From assembly GCF_000815105.2 (NCBI RefSeq), contig NZ_CP010310.2:2232001-2296000 (forward strand): DNA of 64,000 nucleotides. Reading direction: 5' to 3'. Position 1 is the stretch's first letter, and each line of letters opens with the position of its first letter. Shown here piece by piece: positions 37,848-50,714 of this stretch. This DNA is from Pandoraea pulmonicola. Lineage in GTDB: Bacteria; Pseudomonadota; Gammaproteobacteria; Burkholderiales; Burkholderiaceae. The position numbers and the translations under genes were made by a program. The notes below the pieces were generated by a model that saw only the letters and a list, made by a program, of their open reading frames with translations, was not told the DNA's origin and did not search any database.

Positions 37848-38863
37848 GCGCACAACAATTCGCCCCGCTCGCGGGCGTCGACATCGAAGCGGAATGGACG
37901 GCCGAACAGCGCGCCGCTGTCGCGCCGTCTCTCGATCCCCAGGCCGATCCGTTCGGCACGCAATTGCCGCTTGGCGCGAAGGTCGGCGCACGTACCGCGC
38001 CAGGCAACGCTCCCGCCGGCGGCACGAATCTCAAGGTGGTGCATTCGACGGACGAGGTCGCGGCATCGGGGCTTCGGATCGAAGCCGTCGGCAAGCGCTA
38101 TGGCGCCCGCTCCGTGCTTTCCGACTTCTCGCTGTCGATTCCGCGCGGCGGCTTCGCCGCCATCGTCGGCCGCAGTGGCTGCGGCAAGTCGACACTGCTG
38201 CGCCTCATTGCCGGACTGGAGACGCCGGATGCCGGACGCATCACGCTCGACGGACAGGCGCTCGGCGGCAAGTCCGGGGCGGCGTCGGCCAACGTTGCCA
38301 CGCGCATCATGTTCCAGGACGCGCGTTTGCTGCCGTGGCGCACGGTCCTGCAGAACGTGGCGCTCGGCCTGCCGAAGTCCTCGCATGCGCAGGCGCTCGA
38401 AGTGCTGCGCGAAGTCGGCCTCGCCGAGCGTGCGCACGACTGGCCAAGCCAACTCTCGGGCGGTCAGCGCCAGCGCGTGGCGCTCGCCCGGGCACTGGTC
38501 CATCAACCCGATCTGCTGCTGCTCGACGAGCCGCTGGGTGCGCTCGACGCGCTCACCCGCATCGAGATGCATGCCCTCATCGAACGCCTCTGGCGCGCCC
38601 ATGGCTTCACCGCGCTGCTGGTGACGCACGACGTGCAGGAAGCCGTGGCGCTCGCCGATCGCGTGGTGCTCATCGAGCAGGGCCAACTGGGCCTGGACCA
38701 GACCGTGTCGCTGGCGCGCCCGCGCGCTCGCGGCAGTGCCGAATTCGCCGGACTCGAGGCACAGGTGCTCGCGCGCGTGCTGCAAACCGAGCCGTCCACC
38801 ACGCAGCACGCTGCCGCTCCCGAACCGACGTGGCCGGCCGCGACCGTGCGCTGGGCGGTCTGA
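37844..38863 (+). CDS. ssuB: Sulfonate ABC transporter ATP-binding protein
   Basis: A 339-residue ATPase with Walker [14 protein letters not shown]-loop [13 protein letters not shown], signature [15 protein letters not shown], Walker [13 protein letters not shown] and switch His in [16 protein letters not shown]. About 80 extra N-terminal residues ([13 protein letters not shown]...) precede the nucleotide domain, longer than in E. coli SsuB. Start overlap with ssuC supports coupled synthesis. Confidence 0.94.
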
Positions 38864-38926
38864 GGGCGCTCGACTGACGCTTCTTTCCTATTTCTCGTTC
38901 ACTTTTTCCGTACATTGGAGTCCACC

Positions 38927-39142
38927 ATGGGTATCACCGCCATCAACGTCCGCAACCAGTTCAAGGGTCGAATCCGCGAAATCCTGCGCGGCCCGGTACT
39001 CTCCGAGGTCGATGTCGAGACGCCGAGCGGCATCGTCACGTCGGTCATCACCACGCGCTCGATCGACGAATTGCGTCTGGACGTCGGCTCCGAGGTCGTG
39101 GCGCTCGTCAAGGCCACGGAGGTCTCGCTCGCCAAGCTCTGA
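38927..39142 (+). CDS. Molybdopterin-binding (Mop/TOBE) protein
   Basis: A 71-residue single TOBE/Mop domain: MGITAINVRNQFKGRIREILRG then SVITTRSIDELRLDVGSEVVALVKATEVSLAKL. These proteins bind molybdate or tungstate oxyanions. A TTGGAG ribosome site is 6 nt upstream of the ATG. I recall the same small gene (sometimes called ssuF) ending ssu operons in Pseudomonas and Burkholderia; its role in sulfonate use is not clear. Confidence 0.92.
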   Translation: MGITAINVRNQFKGRIREILRGPVLSEVDVETPSGIVTSVITTRSIDELRLDVGSEVVALVKATEVSLAKL

Positions 39143-39263
39143 GCGCGCTGCCGCAGACCGAAGGCGGGGATTCGTCGGACGCGCGTACGAGGGAGGCGTC
39201 CGACGGCCCTGGCAGGAAATTCCGAGCTGGGCTCGGACTGTGCCGCGAATGCACGCACTCGGC

Positions 39264-39272
39264 TGATATAAT
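39264..39272 (+). promoter_or_regulatory. Extended -10 promoter for gltX
   Basis: TGATATAAT has a perfect TATAAT preceded by TGn. It predicts a start near 39279 and a leader of about 85 nt before the gltX ATG at 39365. Confidence 0.65.
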
Positions 39273-39294
39273 GACGGCTTCCGAATGTTGGCGA

Positions 39295-39330
39295 CCCGCC
39301 TGCGCGAGACCCTCCGCCGCGGGCGTTTTT
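39295..39330 (+). terminator. Possible attenuator in the gltX leader
   Basis: CCCGC (39295-39299) can pair with GCGGG (39319-39323), followed by CGTTTTT. An outer stem GGCGAC/GTCGCC (39290-39295 with 39335-39340) competes with it. The stem is short, so this is tentative. Confidence 0.35.
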
Positions 39331-39364
39331 GTTTGTCGCCGACGCGATGCACCGAAGCCAAATC

Positions 39365-40756
39365 ATGACCACTGTCCGCACCCGCTTTGCGCCTAGCCCG
39401 ACCGGATTCATCCATCTGGGCAACATCCGTTCCGCTCTCTATCCGTGGGCCTTCGCGCGTCACAACGCCGGCGCCTTCGTGCTGCGCATCGAGGACACCG
39501 ATCTCGAGCGCTCGACGCCGGAAGCCGTGCAGGTCATTCTCGAAGGCATGGAATGGCTCGGCCTGGATTACGACGAAGGCCCGTTCTACCAGATGCAGCG
39601 CATGGACCGTTATCGCGAGGTGCTGCAGCAGTTGAAGGACGCCGGCCATGTCTATCCGTGCTACATGAGCGTGGAAGAGCTCGACGAACTGCGCGAGCAG
39701 CAGCGCGCGCGCGGCGAGAAGCCGCGCTACGACGGCCGTTGGCGTCCGGAACCGGGCAAGGTGCTGCCCGAGCCGCCGGCCGGCGTGCAACCGGTGCTGC
39801 GCTTCAGGAACCCCCTCACGGGCAGCGTCGCGTGGGACGACGCCGTGAAGGGCCGCATCGAGATCTCGAACGAAGAGCTCGACGACCTCGTGATCGCGCG
39901 TCCGGACGGCACCCCGACGTACAACTTCTGCGTTGTCGTCGACGACATCGACATGGACATCACGCATGTGATTCGCGGCGACGACCATGTGAACAACACC
40001 CCGCGTCAGATCAATATCTTCGAAGCGCTGGGCAAGCAGCCGCCGGTCTACGCGCATCTGCCGACCGTGCTCAACGACCAGGGCGAGAAGATGTCCAAGC
40101 GCAACGGTGCGATGAGCGTCGTGCAGTACCGCGAGGAGGGTTTCCTGCCCGAGGCCGTGGTGAACTATCTGGCGCGTCTGGGCTGGGCACACGGCGACGC
40201 CGAAGTGTTCTCGCGCGAGCAGTTCGTCGCGTGGTTCGACCTGGAGCACCTGGGCAAGTCGCCGGCGCAGCACAATCCGGAAAAGCTGCTGTGGCTGAAC
40301 AACCAGTATCTGAAGCAGGCCGATGACGAGCGCCTGGCGGGTCTCACCGAGCCGTTCCTGCAGAAGGCGGGCGTGTCGATCGAAGGCGGTCCGTCGCTTG
40401 CCGGCGTGGTCGCGCTGTTCAAGGATCGTGCGAACACCGTCAAGGATATCGCCCAGAGTGCGGAGATGTTCTATCGCAAGCCCGCACCGTCGGATGCCGA
40501 CATGGCCCAGCACATGACCGACGCCGCCCGCGCCGCCGTGAAGGATCTCGCCGGGGCGCTCGCCGCCTTGCCGGAGTGGAAGAAGGAGGCGATCTCGCCG
40601 GCGTTCAAGGCGACGCTCGCACAGCACGGCATGAAGATGCCGCAGCTCGCGATGCCGGTGCGTCTGCTCGTCGTGGGCACCACGCACACGCCGCCGATCG
40701 ACGCGGTGCTCGAATTGCTCGGTCGCGATACGGTGCTCGGGCGCCTCGGCGCGTGA
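39365..40756 (+). CDS. gltX: Glutamyl-tRNA synthetase
   Basis: Class I synthetase of 463 residues. The HIGH-like motif is in [19 protein letters not shown], the KMSKR motif in [20 protein letters not shown]. Other blocks are [15 protein letters not shown] and [15 protein letters not shown]. The ATG at 39365 starts [14 protein letters not shown]; an in-frame start 12 codons upstream lies in the structured leader. No Shine-Dalgarno is obvious. A terminator follows. Confidence 0.97.
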
Positions 40757-40805
40757 GGTGCTGACGCCGGACACGGCGGACGGAAGGAAGGCTGAAGGAA
40801 GGCTC

Positions 40806-40832
40806 AAAGGGCTGCGATGCGCAGCCCTTTTT
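40806..40832 (+). terminator. Terminator between gltX and the E1 gene
   Basis: AAAGGGCTGC (40806-40815) pairs with GCAGCCCTTT (40821-40830) around a tiny loop, followed by a T-run. Because it begins with AAA it can also work for the convergent minus-strand gene. Confidence 0.85.
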
Positions 40833-40846
40833 CATGCGCGCCGATG

Positions 40847-43528
40847 TCAGACCGACGCGGGATCGCGCTTGTCGACGTCGATCCCGTAGCGGGCGATCGC
40901 TTCACCGACGCGCGAACGCGGCACCGCGCCGTCGTCGGCAAGTGCCTTCAACGCGGCCAGCACGATGAAGTGGCGGTCGACCTCGAAGAACGCGCGCAGC
41001 GATTCGCGCGTGTCGGAGCGGCCGAAGCCGTCCGTGCCGAGCGAAACGAAGCGGCGGTCCTCGACGAACGGCCGGATCTGGTCGCCCACGATCTTCATGT
41101 AATCGGTGGCGACCACGACCGGGCCCGCATGATCGCGCAGGCACTGCTGCACATACGGCACGCGGGGAGACGCGTCGGGATGCAGGAGGTTCCAGCGCTC
41201 CGCGGCCATGCCGTCGCGGCGCAGCTCGGTCAGGCTGGTCGCACTCCACACGTCGCCGGCCACGCCGAAATCCGTCGCCAGCAACTCGCTTGCCGCGATG
41301 ACTTCGCGCAGAATCGCGCCGCTGCCCATCAACTGCACACGCGGTGCGGCTGCCCCGGTTGCCGACGCGTGGGCCGCCTCGCGCAACAGATAGAGCCCCT
41401 TGAGAATGCCGGCCTCGGCGCCCTCCGGAAGCGCCGGATTCGGATAGTTCTCGTTGAGCAGCGTGATGTAGTAGTAGATGTCCTCCTGCTCGACGTACAT
41501 CCGGCGCAGACCGTCCTGGACGATCACCGCGAGTTCGTAGGCGAACGTCGGGTCGTACGACACGCAGTTCGGGATCACCGAGGACAGCACGTGGCTGTGT
41601 CCGTCGTCGTGCTGCAGGCCCTCGCCCATGAGCGTGGTGCGCCCGGAGGTGGCGCCGAGCAGGAAGCCGCGCGTGCGTGCGTCGCCGGCGGCCCAGGCCA
41701 GATCGCCGACGCGCTGCAGGCCGAACATCGAATAGAAGATGTAGAACGGAATGGCCGCCAGTCCGTGATTGCTGTAGGCCGTGCCGGCGGCGATCCACGA
41801 CGAGATCGCCCCCGACTCGTTGATGCCTTCCTGCAGGATCTGTCCGTCCTTCGCCTCCTTGTAGTAGCTCAACTGACCGGCGTCCTGCGGCGTGTAGAGC
41901 TGTCCCAGGTAGGAGTGAATGCCGATCTGGCGGAACAGGCCTTCCATGCCGAACGTGCGCGACTCGTCGGGAACGATCGGAACGATCAGCTTGCCGATGC
42001 CCGGATCCTTGAGCAACGTGGTCAGAATGCGCACGAACGACATGGTGGTCGACACGCCGCGCTCGCCGCTGTCCTTGAGCTGCGTTGCAAATGCGCTCAA
42101 CGGCGGCACGTCGAGCGGTGCGATCTTCCCGACGCGTGACGGCACGTAGCCGCCGAGCGCTTCGCGGCGCTGCGCGAAGTAGCGTGCCTCTTCGCTGCCG
42201 GGGGCGGGCAGCAGATACGGCATGTCCTCGAGCTGGTCGTCGGACACCGGCAGCGCGAAGCGGTCGCGGAAGGCGCGTACGGCGTCCGCGCTCATTTTCT
42301 TCAACTGGTGGTTGATGTTCTGACCCTCGCCGGCCTCGCCCATGCCGAAACCCTTGACCGTCTTGACGAGCACCACGCTCGGGCGGCCTTGTGTGCCGAC
42401 GGCCTGTGCGTAGGCGGCGTAGACCTTCTCCGGATCGTGGCCGCCGCGTGTGAGCGCCCAGATCTCGTCGTCCGACAGATGCGCGACCAGTTCGAGCAAC
42501 TGTGGATACTTGCCGAAAAAGTGCTCGCGCACGTACGCGCCGTTTTGCGACTTGAATGTCTGGTACTCGCCGTCCACGCATTCCATCATGCGCTGACGCA
42601 GTAGCCCGGTCGTGTCGCGTGCGAGCAGGTCGTCCCAGCCGCTGCCCCACAACACCTTGATCACGTTCCAGCCGGCGGCGCGGAACGTGCCCTCCAGCTC
42701 CTGCACGATCTTGGCGTTGCCGCGCACGGGGCCATCGAGACGCTGCAGGTTGCAGTTCACGACGAAGACCAGGTTGTCGAGCCGCTCGCGACCCGCGAGG
42801 GAAATGGCCGCCAGCGACTCGGGCTGATCCATTTCGCCGTCGCCGAGAAATGCCCAGACCTTGCGGCCTTGATGCTCGAGCAGGCCGCGATATTCCGCAT
42901 AGCGCATGAAGCGCGCCTGATAGGCGGCGGTGAGTGGACCGAGGCCCATCGAGACGGTGGGGAATTGCCAGAAGTCCGGCATGAGGCGCGGGTGCGGATA
43001 CGACGACAGCCCGTCGCGCCCGGCTTCGCGGCGGAAGTTGTCCAACTGCGCTTCGGTGATGCGCCCTTCGAGGTAGGCGCGCGCATAAATGCCCGGGGCC
43101 GAATGTCCCTGGATGTAGACCATGTCGCCGCCGAAGGTGTCGGTGCGGCCGCGGAAGAAGTGGTTGAAACCCACGTCGTACAGCACGGCGGCCGATTGGT
43201 ACGTGGCGATGTGACCGCCCACGTTGGAGTGCTTGCCCGCGCGAAGCACCATCACCATGGCGTTCCAGCGGATGTACGCATTCAGGCGGCGCTCCACGCC
43301 CAGATCGCCGGGATACGCGGGCTGGCGCGACTTCGGAATGGTGTTGACGTAGGCCGTCGTCACCTTGCCGTGCAGGTCGCCGTACTGCGCGACGTCGAAG
43401 TCCATCAACTGGTCGATCAGGTAGTGCGCGCGCGGGCGGCCCTCGACGGCGACGACCGCTTCCATCGCCTCCAGCCACTCTCGTGTTTCCTGAGGGTCGA
43501 TGTCGGGCACTGCGAGCGGCTGGGTCAT
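40847..43528 (-). CDS. Homodimeric 2-oxoacid dehydrogenase E1 (AceE/MdeB type)
   Basis: An 893-residue thiamine diphosphate enzyme resembling AceE, the pyruvate dehydrogenase E1, but closest in style to the MdeB alpha-ketobutyrate branch. IDPQETREWLEAMEAVV opens it; HSNVGGHIATYQSAA and the TPP motif GDGEMDQPES...NCNLQ are complete. PDESRTFGMEGLFRQIGI and QEGINESGAISSW (catalytic Glu) follow. No E2 or E3 gene is adjacent, so it would have to use those of the main PDH complex. The promoter region holds MarR-type palindromes. Confidence 0.9.
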   Translation of the reverse strand: MTQPLAVPDIDPQETREWLEAMEAVVAVEGRPRAHYLIDQLMDFDVAQYGDLHGKVTTAYVNTIPKSRQPAYPGDLGVERRLNAYIRWNAMVMVLRAGKHSNVGGHIATYQSAAVLYDVGFNHFFRGRTDTFGGDMVYIQGHSAPGIYARAYLEGRITEAQLDNFRREAGRDGLSSYPHPRLMPDFWQFPTVSMGLGPLTAAYQARFMRYAEYRGLLEHQGRKVWAFLGDGEMDQPESLAAISLAGRERLDNLVFVVNCNLQRLDGPVRGNAKIVQELEGTFRAAGWNVIKVLWGSGWDDLLARDTTGLLRQRMMECVDGEYQTFKSQNGAYVREHFFGKYPQLLELVAHLSDDEIWALTRGGHDPEKVYAAYAQAVGTQGRPSVVLVKTVKGFGMGEAGEGQNINHQLKKMSADAVRAFRDRFALPVSDDQLEDMPYLLPAPGSEEARYFAQRREALGGYVPSRVGKIAPLDVPPLSAFATQLKDSGERGVSTTMSFVRILTTLLKDPGIGKLIVPIVPDESRTFGMEGLFRQIGIHSYLGQLYTPQDAGQLSYYKEAKDGQILQEGINESGAISSWIAAGTAYSNHGLAAIPFYIFYSMFGLQRVGDLAWAAGDARTRGFLLGATSGRTTLMGEGLQHDDGHSHVLSSVIPNCVSYDPTFAYELAVIVQDGLRRMYVEQEDIYYYITLLNENYPNPALPEGAEAGILKGLYLLREAAHASATGAAAPRVQLMGSGAILREVIAASELLATDFGVAGDVWSATSLTELRRDGMAAERWNLLHPDASPRVPYVQQCLRDHAGPVVVATDYMKIVGDQIRPFVEDRRFVSLGTDGFGRSDTRESLRAFFEVDRHFIVLAALKALADDGAVPRSRVGEAIARYGIDVDKRDPASV

Positions 43529-43636
43529 GGTTTATCTCCTGGAAGTGGTGAAGGCAACGTTGTCGATGCGGGCCGTAGGTTGGTCCCTCGGCCCCTGTGG
43601 GGCGGACTCGCGAGTCTGCAAGTCAGTTGATGTTTA

Positions 43637-43650
43637 ATTGCAATTGCAAT
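43637..43650. promoter_or_regulatory. Perfect palindrome ATTGCAATTGCAAT, likely MarR operator
   Basis: A 14-bp perfect palindrome in the divergent E1-marR region, followed by a half site TTGCAAT at 43659-43665. Near-identical sites lie at 45354 and 45369. It is well placed to control both the E1 gene and marR. Confidence 0.7.
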
Positions 43651-43684
43651 AGTAGCATTTGCAATCGTTTGGTGTGGGATAGAA

Positions 43685-43696
43685 TTGCAGCTGCAA
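43685..43696. promoter_or_regulatory. Palindrome TTGCAGCTGCAA, second MarR-type site
   Basis: A 12-bp perfect palindrome sharing the TTGCA..TGCAA arms of the site at 43637. It ends 27 nt before the marR ATG, where binding would block transcription or initiation. Confidence 0.6.
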
Positions 43697-43723
43697 CCGG
43701 AATTCGGAGAGAGGAGCTTGGCA

Positions 43724-44182
43724 ATGACAGCAGGGAGACCTGATCTTTGGTACTCGTTTGTGCGGGCGCACCGGATGATGATCCGCGAGATCGAACGCCG
43801 TCTGTCGGCGGCCGGACTGCCCGGCTACGCGTGGTATGACGCGCTGTGGGGCCTCGAGAGCGGGCCGGGCGGCACGCGACGCATGCACGAGCTGGCCGAC
43901 GCGCTGGCCATCGAGCGCTACAACCTCACGCGGCTCGTGGATCGGTTGGAGCAGGAGGGGCTCGTCACGCGTGCGCGTTCGGCTGAAGACGGACGTGCGG
44001 CGTTTGCGTCCATCACCAAGGAGGGGCGCGCGTTGCGCAAGAAGATGTGGAAGGTCTACGAGTCGACCGTTGCCGAACTGTTTCTGAGCCAGTTCAGTGC
44101 GGGCGAGCAGGGCACGCTCGCCGACGGGCTCGATCGGACCACGGCCGCGGTGCGTGCGGTTCAGTCCGGTACGGCGGACTGA
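43724..44182 (+). CDS. MarR-family transcriptional regulator
   Basis: A 152-residue winged-helix regulator. RMHELADALAIERYNLTRLVDRLEQEGLV is the recognition region and RARSAEDGRAAFASITKEGRALRKKM the wing. The ATG at 43724 follows GAGAGAGGAG. It is divergent from the E1 gene and its 3' end overlaps the convergent E1-like gene by 22 bp. Matching palindromes at 43.64-43.70 and 45.35-45.38 kb suggest it represses itself, the E1 gene, the E1-like gene and the gst-smr pair. The ligand is unknown. Confidence 0.9.
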   Translation: MTAGRPDLWYSFVRAHRMMIREIERRLSAAGLPGYAWYDALWGLESGPGGTRRMHELADALAIERYNLTRLVDRLEQEGLVTRARSAEDGRAAFASITKEGRALRKKMWKVYESTVAELFLSQFSAGEQGTLADGLDRTTAAVRAVQSGTAD

Positions 44183-45297
44183 CGGCCGCGCGATACATCG
44201 ACGGCGGTGGTTCCCGCGGGCAGCACGCCGTCGTCCATCAGCGCTTTGAGCGCGACGGCGGCAATCCAGCGCGCGTCCGGTGTTGCGGTGCCCACCGGAT
44301 TCGGCTCCGCGCCGAGCGCCACGAAGCGTCCCGGAACGAATGCGCCGATCTGGCTGGCGATCGATCGGGCATAGCCGGTGACGGCGACGACCGGCGCCGT
44401 GCTATCGGAGAGACACCGCAGCACATGCGCCGTTCGGGTCTGCGTCGGTGCGCAGAACAGGTTCGAGCGTTCGACTTCGTATGCCTCCCGCGCGAGGCGC
44501 GTGTAGCTCGGGCAACTCCAGACTTCGCAGTTCACCCCCCATGCTTCGTTGAGCAGGGCAGCCGCTCGCCGCACCTCGGAGAGCGCTTTGCCCGCGCCGA
44601 GCAGCCGAAGGCTGCGCGTGCGTTCGCCCTCGTGCACGGCGACGCGGTACATGCCGCGAAAGGCGTGCTGCGCATCGGCGTCCGACAGCGGTGGTGAGTT
44701 GTCGTCGTCGGGGTGGGTCGAGACGTAGACGAAGCCGCGCTCGCCGTCGAGGTATAGCGCGCGGAGTGCGGCGCGCAGGATGGCGAGGGTTTCGGCGCCC
44801 GACGCCGGGTCGTACGGCGTGCCGTCGGGGCTCGCCGAGAGCCAGAGGGGCAGGGCGGGCTGCACGCTGCGCGGCCAACGCGACGCGAGCGCTTCCACAT
44901 CGTTACAGAAGACGCCGTGATGCGCCGCTTCGAACAGCGCGGCGCGAAGCCCTGTCACGGAAGGCGAACGAAGCAGGTACAACAGCGGCTTCTCGACGCG
45001 TTGCGTTTCATTCCCGAACCATAGCGGCCAGGCGCTGACACGGCGGTGCGCCGCCGTTGCGTCGACATCGGTCTCGACGTCGCCTGCCGTCTCCCGTGCG
45101 GCCCGAACGACCCAGGCGGCTTCGCCCGTCGTGTCGTGCTGCTCCAGCGCGCTTGCAATGGCGCGTATCGCGCGGCGTGGCGAGAGGGTCGAACAGTGCG
45201 CGCTCAGCGCGTCGTCGGCGAGCCGCGCCAGACAGGCGCCGGCGGCGGCGCGCGTCTGCTGCGTACGCACCGAAAGATCGAAGCACTCCCCATTCAT
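44161..45297 (-). CDS. Stand-alone protein like the C-terminal part of AceE-type E1
   Basis: A 378-residue protein with no TPP motif. Its second half aligns by eye with the end of the neighbouring E1: GAGKALSEVRRAAALLNEAWGV matches GSGAILREVIAASELLATDFGV, APVVAVTGYARSIASQIGAFV matches GPVVVATDYMKIVGDQIRPFV, and AVALKALMDDGVLPAG matches LAALKALADDGAVPRS. The middle (FVYVSTHPDDDNSPPL) resembles the end of the Pyr domain. It probably cannot catalyse alone; it could be a regulatory or scaffold subunit or a decaying paralogue. The intact 1.1-kb frame argues against simple decay. Ribosome site AAGGGA is upstream of ATG 45297. Confidence 0.78.
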   Translation of the reverse strand: MNGECFDLSVRTQQTRAAAGACLARLADDALSAHCSTLSPRRAIRAIASALEQHDTTGEAAWVVRAARETAGDVETDVDATAAHRRVSAWPLWFGNETQRVEKPLLYLLRSPSVTGLRAALFEAAHHGVFCNDVEALASRWPRSVQPALPLWLSASPDGTPYDPASGAETLAILRAALRALYLDGERGFVYVSTHPDDDNSPPLSDADAQHAFRGMYRVAVHEGERTRSLRLLGAGKALSEVRRAAALLNEAWGVNCEVWSCPSYTRLAREAYEVERSNLFCAPTQTRTAHVLRCLSDSTAPVVAVTGYARSIASQIGAFVPGRFVALGAEPNPVGTATPDARWIAAVALKALMDDGVLPAGTTAVDVSRGRQSAVPD

Positions 45298-45353
45298 GGC
45301 ATATCCCTTGTCTCGTGACGGACGACTTGCGGAAATTCCGTTTCACTCATACG

Positions 45354-45367
45354 ATTGCAGTTGCAAT
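45354..45367. promoter_or_regulatory. MarR-type palindrome ATTGCAGTTGCAAT
   Basis: Differs from the perfect site at 43637 by one base. It lies between the divergent E1-like gene and gst, 49 nt before the gst ATG. Confidence 0.65.
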
Positions 45368-45368
45368 G

Positions 45369-45382
45369 ATTGTAATTGCAAT
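45369..45382. promoter_or_regulatory. MarR-type palindrome ATTGTAATTGCAAT
   Basis: Second copy, again one base from the perfect site. The centre is 15 bp from the previous one, so two dimers could bind side by side. Two ATGCAAC half-site-like repeats follow before gst. Confidence 0.65.
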
Positions 45383-45416
45383 TTATTGATGCAACAAGAA
45401 TGCAACGAGGAGCCTC

Positions 45417-46070
45417 ATGACAACCGCTAACGGTCTTACGTTCTATACGGCCGACACGCCCAATGGCCAAAAGGTCGCCATCTTCCTGAGCGAGGCCTCG
45501 CTCGGGCACGAACAGGTCACGCTGGATCTTTCCCGGGGCGATCAGCAACGGCCCGAGTATTTGAAGCTCAACCCCAACGGCAAGATTCCCGCCATCGTCG
45601 ATCACGCGGCGGGCGTGACGCTCTTCGAGTCGGGCGCGATCCTCTCGTATCTGTCGCGCAAGACCGGATGCCTCCTGCCGTCGAGCGACGCCGGGCGTCT
45701 TGCCGTCGATCAGTGGCTGCATTTCCAGATCGGCGGCATCGGGCCGATGTTCGGGCAGTTGTGGTGGTTTCTCCACGGCTCCAAGACCGGCAACGAAGAG
45801 GCGATCGAGCGCTATCGGCAGCAGGCGCTGCGTCTCTACCGCGTCGTGGATGGGCGTCTGAGCGAGTCGGCGTTCCTCGCCTTGCCGGACTACAGCATTG
45901 CGGACATCGCCGCCTTCACGTGGTTGCGAACGAGCGGCGAGTTGAATCTGGATATCGGACCGTACACGCACGTGCGCCGATGGCTGGACCGGATCGAGTC
46001 GCGCACTGCCGTGCAGCAGGGGCTGTTGCGCTCGCGGTTGGGTACGGCAGCCGAGCGCGTGGAGGCTTGA
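45417..46070 (+). CDS. Glutathione S-transferase
   Basis: A 217-residue GST with a thioredoxin-like N-domain (FYTADTPNGQKVAIFLSEAS, NPNGKIPAIVDH with cis-Pro, LFESGAILSYLSRK for the gamma-Glu site) and an all-helical C-domain (PDYSIADIAAFTWLR as N-capping box). The TPNGxKV active-site segment is typical of YfcG/Nu-class enzymes, which also reduce disulfides. It is coupled to the SMR gene (3-nt gap) and has GAGGAG upstream. Confidence 0.92.
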   Translation: MTTANGLTFYTADTPNGQKVAIFLSEASLGHEQVTLDLSRGDQQRPEYLKLNPNGKIPAIVDHAAGVTLFESGAILSYLSRKTGCLLPSSDAGRLAVDQWLHFQIGGIGPMFGQLWWFLHGSKTGNEEAIERYRQQALRLYRVVDGRLSESAFLALPDYSIADIAAFTWLRTSGELNLDIGPYTHVRRWLDRIESRTAVQQGLLRSRLGTAAERVEA

Positions 46071-46073
46071 CTC

Positions 46074-46394
46074 ATGGCCTGGGTCTATCTGTTTCTCGCC
46101 GCCGCACTCGAAGTGATCATGGGGCTGTCGCTGAAATTCAACGAGGGATGGACGCGACCCGGCCCGAGTGTGCTGGCTGTGGCGGCGGCGCTGGGCAGCA
46201 TCTATCTGCTCGCGCTGGCGCTGCGCTCACTGCCGGTCGGCGCGGCCTATGCGATCTGGACGGGGGTGGGCACGGTGGGGCTGATTCTCGTTGGCGCGAT
46301 GGTGTTCGGCGAGACGGTGAGCGGTTCGCGCATCCTGTTCCTCGCGCTCACGATCGGCGGGATCGTCGGTCTGCGTTTTTCCGAAGCGGCATGA
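46074..46394 (+). CDS. Small multidrug resistance (SMR) family exporter
   Basis: A 106-residue four-helix membrane protein. AAALEVIMGLSLKF holds the essential Glu of helix 1 (about residue 13). SLPVGAAYAIWTGVGTVG is the helix-3 signature, and GETVSGSRILFLALTIGGIVGLRFS closes it. SLPVG and GWTR resemble the Gdx/SugE guanidinium exporters, but the position after the Glu lacks their usual Trp, so the subtype is open. It pairs with gst as a detoxification unit. Confidence 0.9.
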   Translation: MAWVYLFLAAALEVIMGLSLKFNEGWTRPGPSVLAVAAALGSIYLLALALRSLPVGAAYAIWTGVGTVGLILVGAMVFGETVSGSRILFLALTIGGIVGLRFSEAA

Positions 46395-46430
46395 AAAAAC
46401 CCCGGCGCGCGTTGTTGGCATCGCCGGGGG
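46394..46430 (-). terminator. Terminator for suhB (minus strand)
   Basis: CCCCGGCG (46400-46407) and CGCCGGGG (46422-46429) form the stem; on the minus strand six T's follow (A's at 46394-46399). It lies 1-2 nt past the SMR stop, so it may also act on that gene without a U-tract. Confidence 0.75.
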
Positions 46431-46469
46431 GAGGGAGGGTGCGGGGCGCGCAGGCGCCCGTGTGCAAGC

Positions 46470-47330
46470 TTACGACTGTGCGTTGTCTTCCGTGGCGGCG
46501 CTGGTCTTGGCCTTCGTCTTCGGGGCGACGCGCTTGGCGCGCGAGTAGCCGTCCAGCAGTCTGACCATCTCCGCGTATATCTTCGGATTGGCTGCGAGGA
46601 TTTCGCCTTCGAACAGGAAGTTCGACTCGCCGGTGTAGTTACCGACCAGACCCCCGGCTTCGGTGATCAGCAGGCTGCCTGCGGCCATGTCCCACGGGTT
46701 CAGGCCTTGCTCGAAAAAACCGTCCATGCGGCCGGCGGCGACGTTCGCCAGATCGAGCGCCGCAGCCCCCGGACGGCGAATGCCGGCACAGTGTTCGGTC
46801 ATCGTGCCGAACATCTTGAGGTAGTTCTCCACCCCTTGCAGGTCGCGGAACGGGAAACCCGTGCCGATCAGGCCGTCGGCCAGGCGATCGCGGCGCGAGA
46901 CGCGGATGCGCTTGCCGTCGAGGTAGGCGCCGCGGCCGCGCGAAGCCGTGAAGAGTTCGTTGCGGGTGGGATCGTAAACCACGGCTTGCTGGACGATGCC
47001 CTTGTGCGCGAGTGCGATCGAGGTGCAGTAGTAGGGCAGGCCGTGAATGAAGTTGGTGGTGCCATCGAGCGGATCGATGATCCACTGATATTCCGAATCC
47101 GCTTTGCCGTGCGCCTCGCCGGATTCTTCGGCGAGGATGGCGTGGTCGGGATAGGCTTGCAGGAGGGTTTCGATGATCGCTTGCTCTGCCGCCTTGTCCA
47201 CTTCCGTCACGAAGTCGTTGTGCTGCTTCTTGCTGACCTTGATGGCGTCGACATCGAGGGAAGCCCGGTTGATGATGGTACCGGCGCGGCGCGCGGCCTT
47301 CACCGCGATATTGAGCATGGGATGCTGCAT
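46470..47330 (-). CDS. suhB: Inositol monophosphatase family protein SuhB
   Basis: Mg-dependent phosphatase fold, 286 residues. Metal-site motifs are [20 protein letters not shown] and [17 protein letters not shown]. In E. coli SuhB also joins the rRNA antitermination complex; which role dominates here is unknown. The C-terminal tail is Lys/Ala-rich ([18 protein letters not shown]). Ribosome site AGGAA precedes ATG 47330; a start four codons later is possible. Confidence 0.95.
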
Positions 47331-47785
47331 GACAGATTCCTGTTAAGGCCAACGCTGGCGCAACGCGCGATCCCTTGGGGGCCGCATGGCGGGCATGGCA
47401 GACAAAGCGAACAAATTGAGCAAGAGCGATGTCCCGGCAAGCGCCGCACACAGGGTGGCGGCTCGATTGCGGAGACGAAAGCGCGTATTTTAGCAAAAAC
47501 GCGTGGCCTCCGCTGCGCCGTTTTGGATTCTGACCCTTTTATCGGTGAGGAGGCGTCTTACGGAGAATGCGCGGGGATGTCTGGCGTAGAGCAAGGGCAT
47601 GGGGCGGCATGTTCCGGACGCCAGTGTGCGTAACACCCCTGCCAACGGCGATTCGGGGCAAAATAGCGGCGTTTGCCGATCGGCCTGCGCCGGAGACGCG
47701 TTTCGGACCATGCCGATGTGCTTCCTCCCGCAGGCGCTCACTCATCGTCTCGCTGCCGTTGCGTCGCAACCATCATCGCCGTCCT
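47331..47785. other. Divergent region between suhB and trmJ
   Basis: A 455-bp gap. On the minus strand TGCTAAAAT (47487-47495) is a good extended -10 for suhB. No clear trmJ promoter, gene or repeat is seen; open frames running through it upstream of trmJ look like shadow. Confidence 0.45.
47487..47495 (-). promoter_or_regulatory. Extended -10 promoter for suhB
   Basis: Read on the minus strand as TGCTAAAAT (TGn plus TAAAAT). It predicts a start near 47480 and a ~150-nt leader. Confidence 0.5.
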
Positions 47786-48640
47786 ATGCCTCAGTCCCCC
47801 GCCCCTGTCGATCCCGCCACCTCCGCCGCCCCCACCATCGTGCCGCCGTTGTTCGATCGCGTGCGTTTCGTGCTCAACGAAACGAGCCACCCCGGCAACG
47901 TCGGCTCCGCCGCGCGTGCGATCAAGACGATGGGCTTTGGTCGTCTGGTGCTGGCGGCGCCGCGTGCGGGTGTCGAAGTCCTGCGCGACCCGGAAGCCGT
48001 GGCGCTGGCCAGCGGGGCGGACGATGTGCTGGCGAATGCGCTCGTCGTGCCCGACCTGAACACCGCGCTGCAGGGCGTGAGCTGGGCCGTGGCGCTCTCC
48101 GCGCGTTCGCGCGAATACGGGCCGCCGAACGCCGAGCCGCGCGAGAGCGCCGCGTTGGCCGTGCAGCACGCGGCGCAGGGCGACGCGGTGGCATTCCTCT
48201 TCGGCAGCGAGCGCACGGGGCTGTCCAATGTCGACGTCGAACGCTGTAACGCGCTCGTCCACATCCCCGCCAATCCGTTGTACAGCTCGCTCAATCTGTC
48301 GCAGGCAGTGCAACTGATCGCTTACGAAGTGCGCATGGCGTGCCTGGCGCGCGAGCGCGGCGAACTGGTCAGGGATGGGGCAGACACGGGGACGAGCGAC
48401 GTGGCTGCCGCGAGTGCGCCCACGACGCACGAATCGCTGGCGACGCGCGACGACGTGGAAGGCATGCTCGCGCATCTGGAGCGTGCGCTCGTCGATCTCG
48501 ACTTTCTCGATCCCGATAATCCCAAGAAGCTCATGACGCGCTTGCGGCGGCTCTTCGCCAAGAGCCACCTGGAGCGCGAGGAAGTGAACATCCTGCGCGG
48601 CATCGCGAAGCACATCCTCGAGCGCAGGATCCGGCGTTGA
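47786..48640 (+). CDS. trmJ: tRNA (cytidine/uridine-2'-O-)-methyltransferase TrmJ
   Basis: SPOUT methyltransferase that 2'-O-methylates position 32 of tRNAs. It has 284 residues. VRFVLNETSHPGNVGSAARAIKTMGF, AFLFGSERTGLSNVDVERC and HIPANPLYSSLNLSQAVQLIAYE are the knot motifs. The C-terminal ~80 residues are a helical extension typical of TrmJ. The ATG at 47786 begins MPQSPAPVDPA. Confidence 0.94.
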   Translation: MPQSPAPVDPATSAAPTIVPPLFDRVRFVLNETSHPGNVGSAARAIKTMGFGRLVLAAPRAGVEVLRDPEAVALASGADDVLANALVVPDLNTALQGVSWAVALSARSREYGPPNAEPRESAALAVQHAAQGDAVAFLFGSERTGLSNVDVERCNALVHIPANPLYSSLNLSQAVQLIAYEVRMACLARERGELVRDGADTGTSDVAAASAPTTHESLATRDDVEGMLAHLERALVDLDFLDPDNPKKLMTRLRRLFAKSHLEREEVNILRGIAKHILERRIRR

Positions 48641-48655
48641 GCGTGACGGAGGACG

Positions 48656-48677
48656 ATGGCCGCGCCGCGGCCATTTT
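48656..48677 (+). terminator. Hairpin after trmJ
   Basis: ATGGCCG (48656-48662) pairs with CGGCCAT (48668-48674), then TTTT. Short U-tract; a weak terminator. Confidence 0.5.
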
Positions 48678-48755
48678 CGCCGAAGGGGTGTTCGAGCACA
48701 CGTCGCCAAAACCCCATACAATCTTCAGTCACAAGCTTATAAGTCTCTCGCGGAT

Positions 48756-48812
48756 ATGAACCGTTTGCGCCAGCGCTGCGCCGCCTCCCTGCCTTATCAC
48801 GTGCACTGTTAG
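48756..48812 (+). CDS. Possible 18-codon leader peptide upstream of cysE
   Basis: MNRLRQRCAASLPYHVHC, followed by TAG, lies 6 nt after the start predicted from a TATAAG box at 48738-48743. Two of 18 residues are Cys, one directly before the stop. A cysteine-sensing leader upstream of a cysteine-biosynthesis gene is conceivable, but it has no strong ribosome site, and short frames arise by chance. Confidence 0.25.
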   Translation: MNRLRQRCAASLPYHVHC

Positions 48813-48988
48813 CCCTGCGCCGACACGCGTGAGCCTGCCTCCCCGGCGGGTGTCACCGCCTCTGCCATGCCCTTCGCCGCTCAGCGCTTGTGCCACGACG
48901 GCCGACGGCTTTCCGCTCCCCCCGATTACGCCGCGACAACCCTGCCCCCAGACGGCGGGACGCGCACCACAGGATCGACTTCAGGCTC

Positions 48989-49792
48989 ATGTTTACCCGT
49001 CTTCGCGAAGATATCGCCGCCATTCGGCAAAAGGACCCCGCCGCTCGCAGCAACTGGGAAGTGCTCACCTGCTATCCCGGCTTGCATGCCGTCATGCTCC
49101 ATCGCGTGGCCAACGGTTGCTGGCGGTCGGGTTTCAAGTGGCTGGGTCGCTACATCTCGCAGTACGCGCGCTTTCTTACCGGCATCGAGATTCACCCCGG
49201 CGCTACGCTGGGTCGACGCGTCTTCATCGATCACGGCATGGGCGTGGTGATCGGCGAGACGGCCGTGATCGGCGACGATTGCACGATCTATCAGGGCGTC
49301 ACGCTTGGTGGCACGTCGCTTGCGCGCGGCGCAAAACGCCACCCCACGCTCGAGGCCGGTGTGATCGTCGGCGCCGGGGCCAAGGTGCTGGGCGGCTTCA
49401 CCGTGGGCGAAGGGGCGAAGATCGGCTCGAACGCGGTCGTGGTCAAGGAAGTCCCCGCGGGCGGTACCGCCGTGGGCAATCCCGCACGCATCATTCGGCC
49501 GCGCAGCGCCGAGGCGCCACGTGGCGAAGGCGAGAGCGGGCAGGGCGCCGGCTTGCCGGGCGGCAATGGTCGCAAGGCGGAGTTCTCGGCCTACGGCATC
49601 ACGCCGAACGCCGACGACCCGGTTTCGCTCGCCATTCACGGACTGATCGAGAACGCGGCCGATCAATCGCACAGGATCGACGTGATGGTCGTCGCGCTCA
49701 ATCAGCTCGGCGCGCACCTGGAAGCGCTCGGTGCGAGCAGGATCGATACGGCCGAACTGCGCAAGCTCGGCAAGGAAATTCAGGACATGTGA
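48989..49792 (+). CDS. cysE: Serine O-acetyltransferase
   Basis: Acetylates serine, the entry step to cysteine. It has 267 residues from [20 protein letters not shown]. The left-handed beta-helix hexapeptides run through [27 protein letters not shown] and [11 protein letters not shown], with active-site His and Asp in FIDHG and earlier. [20 protein letters not shown] ends the fold. About 90 extra C-terminal residues follow. The frame is open upstream of 48989, but conserved sequence starts there. Confidence 0.94.
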
Positions 49793-49871
49793 GGTGCCGC
49801 GGGCATGGCGCCGCGCAAACGACCCGGCCCGTCGTCATGACAGGCTGTTTGCTCGTTTGCTTTGCACAGGC

Positions 49872-50714
49872 CTATGCGCCCGGTACGAGATCGATCGCGC
49901 GCAGGCCGTGGGCATCCCACTGCAGATAGCCGCCGCGCGGCGGCTCCATGTCGAATTCCCAGTCGGGCAGCACCCAGCGCACGCGCCGGCCGTCGGCATG
50001 GCGCGCGGGGCGATGCGTGTGGCCGTGCACGAGCGTGCGCTCGCCGGCGGCGTCGAGCAGCGCATGGATGGCGTCTGGGTTGGCGTCGGCATATGCCATC
50101 CGATGCGCGCCCCGGGCGGCGCTGCGACGACGGATGCGATCGGCAATCGCCATGCGAAGCCGCAACGGCAGCGCAAGGAAAAACGCCTTGCCGAGCGGCG
50201 AGTGCGCCACGCGGCGAAAACGTTGATAACCCACGTCGTCGGTGCACAACTGGTCGCCGTGGCTGAGCACGAGCGCCTGACCGAGAAACGGGAACACGCA
50301 CGGATCGTCGAGCATCACCGCGCCCGCGGCCCGCGCGAAGCGCTCGCCGAGCAGGAAGTCGCGGTTGCCGCGCATCACCGCGATCGGCACACCGCTGGAC
50401 GACAGTTCGGCCATGGCGGCGGTCATGCGTCGGGCGAATGCGCCGAGCGGTTCGGGAGCGGCGTCGGCGGAGTCATTGCCGCCGGCGCCCGGCATGTCGG
50501 CGCCGAGCATGTCGTCGCCGACCCAGTATTCGAACAGATCGCCGAGAATGAAAAGAATGGACGCTTCACGCGCGGGACCGCGCAGGAAGTCTTCGAACAC
50601 TTGCACCGTGCGCGGCAGGGCGGGCGAGAGGTGAAGGTCGGAAATGAAAAGCGCGGGCCCGTCGCCCCGTGGTGTCACGGGACATTGCGGGCACCGCGCA
50701 GTCGATACTGGCAT
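49872..50714 (-). CDS. lpxH: UDP-2,3-diacylglucosamine diphosphatase LpxH
   Basis: Calcineurin-like phosphoesterase of lipid A synthesis. It has 280 residues. The five metal blocks are complete: FISDLHLS, GDLFEYWVGDD, MRGNRDFLLG, VLSHGDQLCTDD and LVHGHTHRPARH. An insert after GDLFEYWVGDD (GADMPGAGGNDSADAAPEP) makes it slightly long. It is the last gene of a minus-strand TPR-ppiA-ppiB-lpxH cluster. Confidence 0.95.
   Translation of the reverse strand: MPVSTARCPQCPVTPRGDGPALFISDLHLSPALPRTVQVFEDFLRGPAREASILFILGDLFEYWVGDDMLGADMPGAGGNDSADAAPEPLGAFARRMTAAMAELSSSGVPIAVMRGNRDFLLGERFARAAGAVMLDDPCVFPFLGQALVLSHGDQLCTDDVGYQRFRRVAHSPLGKAFFLALPLRLRMAIADRIRRRSAARGAHRMAYADANPDAIHALLDAAGERTLVHGHTHRPARHADGRRVRWVLPDWEFDMEPPRGGYLQWDAHGLRAIDLVPGA

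Follow-up and report, generated by a model that had tools for sequence, protein, structure and literature searches.

A predicted MarR operator joins a second pyruvate dehydrogenase E1, a conserved dead E1 relative and detoxification genes in Pandoraea pulmonicola

Introduction

MarR-controlled stress regulons are known from bacteria. Among the closest described systems is MhqR from Staphylococcus aureus, a MarR repressor that, in the available parts of the sources, is described as sensing quinones and controlling resistance to quinone-like compounds (PMC12893000; PMC6798810), and for Burkholderia the available part of a review names only MftR, BifR, OhrR and TctR as characterised MarR proteins (PMC10458429). 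Here we analyse a marR locus of Pandoraea pulmonicola (contig NZ_CP010310.2, positions 2,232,001 to 2,296,000; this stretch of 64,000 nucleotides is called the window, and coordinates refer to it unless a genomic position is given), in which a palindromic sequence recurs at divergent promoters and is the predicted operator of the MarR protein. The cargo is unusual for a regulon of this kind, comprising, next to detoxification genes, a spare pyruvate dehydrogenase E1 and an E1 relative that is dead but conserved. At the level of sequence the regulon is real and wider than first thought.

Among the literature matches listed there was no description of this operator or of a MarR protein combined with a pyruvate dehydrogenase E1, mention in Burkholderia MarR reviews being possible, and the string TTGCAATTGCAA together with MarR returned unrelated papers only. 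The term pyruvate dehydrogenase is absent from the text of the Burkholderia MarR review (PMC10458429).

Results

From left to right the locus consists of E1 (- strand), a divergent gap of 195 bp with two palindromes, marR (+), E1-like (-), whose 3' end overlaps the 3' end of marR tail to tail, a second divergent gap of 119 bp, again with two palindromes, and the genes for a glutathione transferase (GST, +) and a small multidrug resistance (SMR) transporter (+):

40847-43528, - strand: alternative pyruvate dehydrogenase E1 of the AceE type, 893 amino acids (aa; NCBIfam TIGR00759, 1419.7 bits, cut-off 859.9)
43637-43650, no strand: predicted operator 1 of the marR/E1 gap, perfect palindrome ATTGCAATTGCAAT, conserved in relatives
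43658-43685, + strand: putative sigma-70-like promoter of marR (consensus match only)
43684-43697, no strand: predicted operator 2 of the marR/E1 gap, TTGCAGCTGCAA at 43685-43696, as 14-mer with three mismatches, 47 bp from operator 1
43724-44182, + strand: marR, 152-aa winged-helix regulator (Pfam MarR_2, 52.9 bits)
44161-45297, - strand: E1-like pseudo-enzyme of 378 aa that retains the C-terminal domain of AceE and a remnant of its middle domain (Pfam Transketolase_C_1)
45354-45367, no strand: predicted operator 1 of the E1-like/GST gap, ATTGCAGTTGCAAT
45369-45382, no strand: predicted operator 2 of the E1-like/GST gap, ATTGTAATTGCAAT, 15 bp from operator 1
45417-46070, + strand: glutathione transferase of the disulfide-bond-oxidoreductase type (NF010579, 187.4 bits, cut-off 332; subtype unassigned)
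46074-46394, + strand: SMR transporter, SugE-like (Pfam PF00893; 96.2 bits with the SugE/Gdx guanidinium exporter model, below its cut-off of 126)

All four palindromes that a first-pass annotation of this DNA had pointed out are present where and as it had written them. Allowing up to three mismatches the window contains five matches, all five inside the two gaps, while shuffled windows contained 1.29 on average and reached five in 2 of 100 shuffles. The whole genome, searched as one contig of 5.87 Mb, contains nine places with up to two mismatches: three in the two window gaps, two in front of a MaiA-like gene at genomic position 2810804 and four elsewhere, the last number being equal to the four places found with the reversed control pattern. 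One of these four lies within a clear long reading frame; the coding status of the other three is less clear. With up to one mismatch only four places are left: the marR/E1 gap has one, the E1-like/GST gap has two, and the fourth is in the MaiA promoter, where the site sits 34 bp upstream of the gene and a site with two mismatches starts 49 bp before it. The gene at 2810804 encodes a MaiA-type glutathione transferase (TIGR01262, 202.6 bits, cut-off 171.05) and is unlinked, 0.53 Mb away. As this promoter carries the same operator, the predicted regulon comprises at least six genes, one of them unlinked. The proposal of one operator type for five genes at two divergent promoters is thus strongly supported by conservation (see below), but its count was too small, MaiA being the sixth. 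Within the marR/E1 gap, the site at 43684-43697 overlaps the end of the promoter-like -10 box, the promoter-like sequence ending at 43685, and, provided that this consensus match marks the promoter, would cover the -10 edge and the start point, as a repressor would require.

Searching 398 genomes of the family for the MarR protein gave a match at E <= 1e-25 in 63 genomes from 4 of 25 genera. For a wider comparison we used a named set, the best 80 of 183 relatives, picked by MarR similarity and not by motif, many of them closely related to one another. It includes loci from Burkholderia, Cupriavidus, Pararobbsia, Pandoraea, Achromobacter, Bordetella, Pigmentiphaga, Massilia, Pseudoduganella, Herbaspirillum and Herminiimonas as well as from Pseudomonas, Serratia, Kosakonia, Phytobacter, Rhodanobacter, Luteibacter, Rudaea and Dyella. 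With up to two mismatches the site is found upstream of marR in 77 of 79 named regions (L243, identified by its position, was omitted as its upstream region is too short), while 200 control palindromes of the same composition average 0.06 and never exceed 3. Correspondingly, it lies upstream of E1-like in 41/41, of the GST gene in 42/44 and of E1 in 65/67 regions, the controls averaging 0.06 at most, and upstream of the SMR gene in 1/26. As marR and E1 have a common gap, and E1-like and GST mostly likewise, the counts are not independent of each other. The spacing is conserved, too, with 15 bp in 37 of 38 pairs upstream of GST and 42-49 bp in 56 of 69 successive pairs upstream of marR. The matrix built from 263 sites is biased by the selection at up to two mismatches and by ten Pandoraea contigs shared between the named and the genus set, which are also counted twice in the 100 MarR, 82 E1 and 53 E1-like rows used below. 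The motif is neither scattered at random in the genome nor lost in relatives at this threshold, two outcomes that would have spoken against the first-pass proposal.

Within the genus, 20 of 32 Pandoraea genomes encode MarR orthologs. E1 (at >=80% identity), GST and MaiA (orthologs at E <= 1e-60 each) are found in 18, 19 and 18 genomes, respectively, always among the 20 MarR-bearing ones, the 12 others lacking all three (Fisher p 4e-7 to 6e-8, relatedness ignored). The MaiA promoters carry the site in 18/18 cases at up to two and in 17/18 at up to one mismatch. Sites with up to one mismatch to RTTGCAATTGCAAY average 6.6 per MarR-bearing genome versus 1.0 for the reversed control, and 1.6 versus 0.9 in the 12 MarR-less genomes. 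In one genome (G003) the regulon is split, with marR-E1 at 0.99 Mb and E1-like/GST-SMR at 2.68 Mb, and sites are present at both halves; in G024 the same split extends across two contigs, again with sites. Extra regulon members in G029 were considered and rejected, its four other sites being single and scattered. Around other hits (L075, L081, L083 and L088-L093) the stretches held no match to any of the eight query proteins, and these hits were taken as chance.

The regulator itself belongs to the MarR family (PF12802, 4.3e-14; PF01047, 7.3e-10), and scores below every NCBIfam cut-off that it matches, the best being HpaR (40.8 of 121.2) and SlyA (38.3 of 120); no MhqR model is among these matches. 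The best of the predicted models has a pLDDT of 83, the other four 46-60, and its top Foldseek matches are MarR structures, including MftR, HucR, PecS, NadR, PcaV and HpaR, so that the modelled fold would leave the ligand undecided. Cysteine is absent from 95 of 100 MarR rows, the window protein included, and five Pseudomonas rows contain one or two. A thiol-based redox sensor of the OhrR/YodB type was rejected, the sensing cysteine being missing. As this MarR is mostly cysteine-free, a thiol switch appears unlikely and a ligand pocket more likely. We regard it as highly likely that this MarR binds the palindrome and as likely that it acts as a repressor.

The window E1 is 63% identical to the housekeeping AceE of the same genome and can be aligned with E. 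coli AceE (1l8a and others) along almost the entire protein. As the genome contains a complete housekeeping aceE-aceF-lpd operon (locus L305), encoding E2 and E3 as well, ~85 kb from the regulon E1, the regulon E1 is a spare copy. Eight active-site positions, which we take to correspond to His106, His142, Glu401, His407, Glu522, Glu571, Tyr599 and His640 of E. coli AceE, are kept in the alignment in 82 of 82 full-length rows, the window included (the pieces L221, L231, L233 and L073 were excluded); plain text motifs missed Glu401/His407 in three and His640 in four rows, where the alignment shows the residues. In nine pairs dN/dS is 0.02-0.10. The regulon E1 and 13 Pandoraea housekeeping AceE proteins are fixed differently at 81 positions (>=95% in each set). 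A Cys nine residues after the catalytic Glu571, present in 13/13 of these housekeeping proteins and in E. coli AceE, is missing in 81/82 regulon rows, and a housekeeping Cys at position 763 of the window E1 is found in 0/82, E. coli AceE also lacking it; four other cysteines are common, or nearly so, to both sets. At position 235 housekeeping and E. coli AceE have Glu, while at least 95% of the regulon rows have Gln. The cysteine losses and position 235 may be taken as leads, not as proof, for an E1 that resists a thiol-reactive poison. As a separate observation, AceE paralogs of 55-64% identity occur in G002, G006, G007, G023, G025, G028 and G030, some of these genomes being without this MarR.

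E1-like shows no match to the cofactor domain, and the N-terminal domain is gone. Motifs for Glu401/His407, Glu522, Glu571 and His640 are found in none of 53 rows; one row matched a short His142 motif, in a stretch that is absent by alignment, and the match was taken as chance. Nevertheless, the reading frames span 339-432 aa in all 53 rows and dN/dS is 0.10-0.38 in 10/10 pairs, so E1-like looks like a conserved dead enzyme under purifying selection rather than a decaying copy. The term truncated relative, used in the first-pass annotation, understates this conservation. The structure model is weak (mean pLDDT 62) and matches AceE, which supports kinship only. As a guess, E1-like might bind E1 or E2, either as a partner or as a decoy.

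Beyond the two divergent promoters, gene order in relatives provides further links. As the operator is nearly never found directly upstream of the SMR gene, this gene is probably transcribed together with GST; an operator of its own was rejected, a site lying directly upstream in just one of 26 named and none of 15 genus regions. A riboswitch, for guanidine or another ligand, was also rejected, no Rfam family reaching the gathering threshold in 38000-50000. In five loci of the Rhodanobacteraceae type (L237, L238, L239, L250, L262) E1, E2 and MaiA follow one another in one direction, a gene order that associates MaiA with the regulon without recourse to the operator in Pandoraea; the record of L237 is labelled Eremiobacteraeota, and in the tree its E1 groups with Rhodanobacteraceae. 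The Serratia locus has E1-E2, and Dyella L257 has MaiA opposite marR, without E1. E2 is a dihydrolipoyl acetyltransferase, two of three tested proteins passing TIGR01348 and the one from Serratia scoring narrowly below (546.4, cut-off 552.1). The E1-E2 gene order suggests that the regulon E1 works in pyruvate dehydrogenase.

In Herbaspirillum L241 and Herminiimonas L208 E1 is immediately followed by a gene for a flavodoxin-fold reductase, and in Cupriavidus L223 such a gene immediately follows SMR. The proteins from L241 and L223 pass Pfam Flavodoxin_2; all three are below the NCBIfam azoreductase cut-offs. Flavodoxin-fold reductases are often quinone-reducing enzymes. Several other neighbours recur. 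A KefF-related flavodoxin-fold oxidoreductase gene is convergent to E1 in L216 (1298-2080), with a clustered copy in 20 loci and no site at up to two mismatches near its start in L216. In L195 (7525-9066) and similar Burkholderia loci GST is followed by a codirectional gene for a cytosine/purine-type permease (PF02133). A clustered copy occurs in 13 loci, and the gene may be a further operon member. Burkholderia L193, L207 and L229 are without E1 and have a large pump-like gene upstream of marR (putatively RND by sequence), in L193 together with a NodT-type outer membrane gene.

In a tree of 53 chosen E1 rows and one housekeeping AceE the window E1 groups with those of Massilia, Achromobacter, Bordetella and Kosakonia (100/100), whereas 17 other Pandoraea E1 proteins form a separate clade (100/100). 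The IMP and GltX neighbours of the window locus have no match in the corresponding stretches of 19 genus relatives, i.e. the locus sits at a different genomic place. Based on the grouping outside the Pandoraea clade and on this different place, the module was probably acquired or replaced here in a horizontal transfer that left operator and gene set intact. Elsewhere, the region around marR in L170 is shared with Pandoraea L073 over 10.6 kb at 99.96% and with five other Burkholderiaceae (L171, L172, L173, L174, L178) over 8.6-13.0 kb at 99.66-99.97%, and this type of region looks recently mobile. In it E1 is cut after ~115 codons, and L170 carries a cytochrome P450 gene (PF00067) behind that promoter; close by are genes for an acyl-CoA dehydrogenase, LacI, TctC, a CoA-transferase and an FAD-oxidase.

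Discussion

Based on these findings we propose that a MarR repressor sits on the tandem ATTGCAATTGCAAT palindromes at its own promoter, which it has in common with the divergent E1 gene, and would also occupy the divergent E1-like/GST-SMR promoter and the unlinked MaiA promoter. A small molecule would free MarR from the DNA, and this release would turn on a replacement pyruvate dehydrogenase E1, its dead relative, two glutathione transferases and a small exporter, which might sustain the flux from pyruvate to acetyl-CoA and remove the compound as long as an electrophile, most likely a quinone-like one, is present. Leaving aside the exact inducer, we consider this chain from operator switch to spare E1 and detoxification probable. 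It is likely that the regulon E1 works as a pyruvate dehydrogenase, with the housekeeping E2 or one of its own. For a quinone-like or other glutathione-reactive electrophile as signal we see not quite an even chance; this suggestion draws mainly on the flavodoxin-fold reductases in the loci of relatives, as such enzymes often reduce quinones. The first-pass annotation had suggested a toxic or electrophilic carbonyl or a quaternary compound, and we lean towards the quinone-like or glutathione-reactive inducer as the one favoured by the neighbouring genes.

Several observations weigh against this picture. The MarR-less Pandoraea genomes hold a few single sites, one of them perfect (G023), G029 has MarR and an E1 fragment without GST or MaiA, and G031 is without regulon E1, E1-like and MaiA. 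At up to two mismatches there is no site upstream of marR in L220 and L227, nor upstream of GST in L223 and L227. Since 13 of the 80 named loci show no E1 match in the stretch fetched and four further rows hold pieces only, E1 is not indispensable to the module. The comparison of housekeeping cysteines covers 13 AceE proteins of one genus and that of E. coli, the electrophile is deduced from family names, several of them assigned to proteins below curated cut-offs, and binding, repression and enzyme role are predicted here from sequence.

A catabolic regulon would account for part of the evidence as well. MarR would then sense an aromatic acid or breakdown product, MaiA would isomerise maleylacetoacetate or maleylpyruvate and E1-E2 would handle a 2-oxoacid of the pathway. 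MaiA does pass TIGR01262, the fold matches of MarR include MarR proteins whose titles name aromatic ligands or pathways (NadR, PcaV, HpaR, BpsR), and its best NCBIfam match, far below cut-off, is HpaR. Yet no ring-cleavage gene was noted among the recurring neighbours, the flanks being annotated in part only, E1 and two of three E2 proteins pass pyruvate dehydrogenase models, and GST, SMR and the flavodoxin-fold reductases are better explained by detoxification; we thus regard a catabolic role as unlikely. Less probable still is that E1-like is a decaying pseudogene and E1 a redundant copy with no special role. In favour of this, E1-like is a catalytically dead, fast-varying protein, and several loci with E1 and GST lack it; against it stand its purifying selection, its reading frames and the site upstream of it in each of the 41 named regions, and E1 is retained with invariant catalytic residues.

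It is very improbable that the palindrome is the operator of another regulator and MarR just a regulated neighbour. The few single sites in MarR-less genomes would fit such a regulator, but the number of sites is near the control where MarR is absent, the site lies upstream of marR in nearly all named loci, and sites are found with MarR also at new loci, in split regulons and in other families. The detoxification switch under MarR control thus remains our preferred explanation. A bolder version of it, a mobile target swap, is on balance rather unlikely: an electrophilic natural product would poison the housekeeping AceE, possibly through the cysteine close to its catalytic glutamate, a cysteine-depleted AceE altered at position 235 would step in with the dead E1 as partner or decoy, and the module would have spread under one conserved operator across Burkholderiaceae, Alcaligenaceae, Oxalobacteraceae, Pseudomonas, Enterobacterales and Rhodanobacteraceae.

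If the proposed switch is correct, central carbon metabolism has an inducible spare part, i.e. a second E1 that is silenced by MarR and freed alongside detoxification enzymes, and the pseudo-E1 would be a conserved dead enzyme in a textbook complex. Moreover, the operator would be defined well enough to be searched for and to predict unlinked regulon members, and compounds that poison AceE in soil bacteria might be found via the inducers of one promoter.

Compared to its housekeeping counterpart, the aceE-aceF-lpd operon of the same genome, the regulon E1 belongs to the same enzyme family, but differs in sequence (see above), and none of the nine genomic sites at up to two mismatches lies at that operon. 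With E. coli AceE it has in common the nearly full-length alignment and the catalytic residues, whereas Gln replaces Glu235 and the Cys after the catalytic Glu is gone. The regulator shares its family and host group with the Burkholderia MarR proteins, an MftR-operator structure being among the best fold matches. With MhqR it shares the MarR fold, but MhqR stems from another organism and targets the mhqRED operon, and the available part of the source mentions no pyruvate dehydrogenase gene (PMC12893000). According to the same part, MhqR has a quinone-binding pocket and no thiol switch, a design that would suit the cysteine-poor MarR of the window (PMC12893000).

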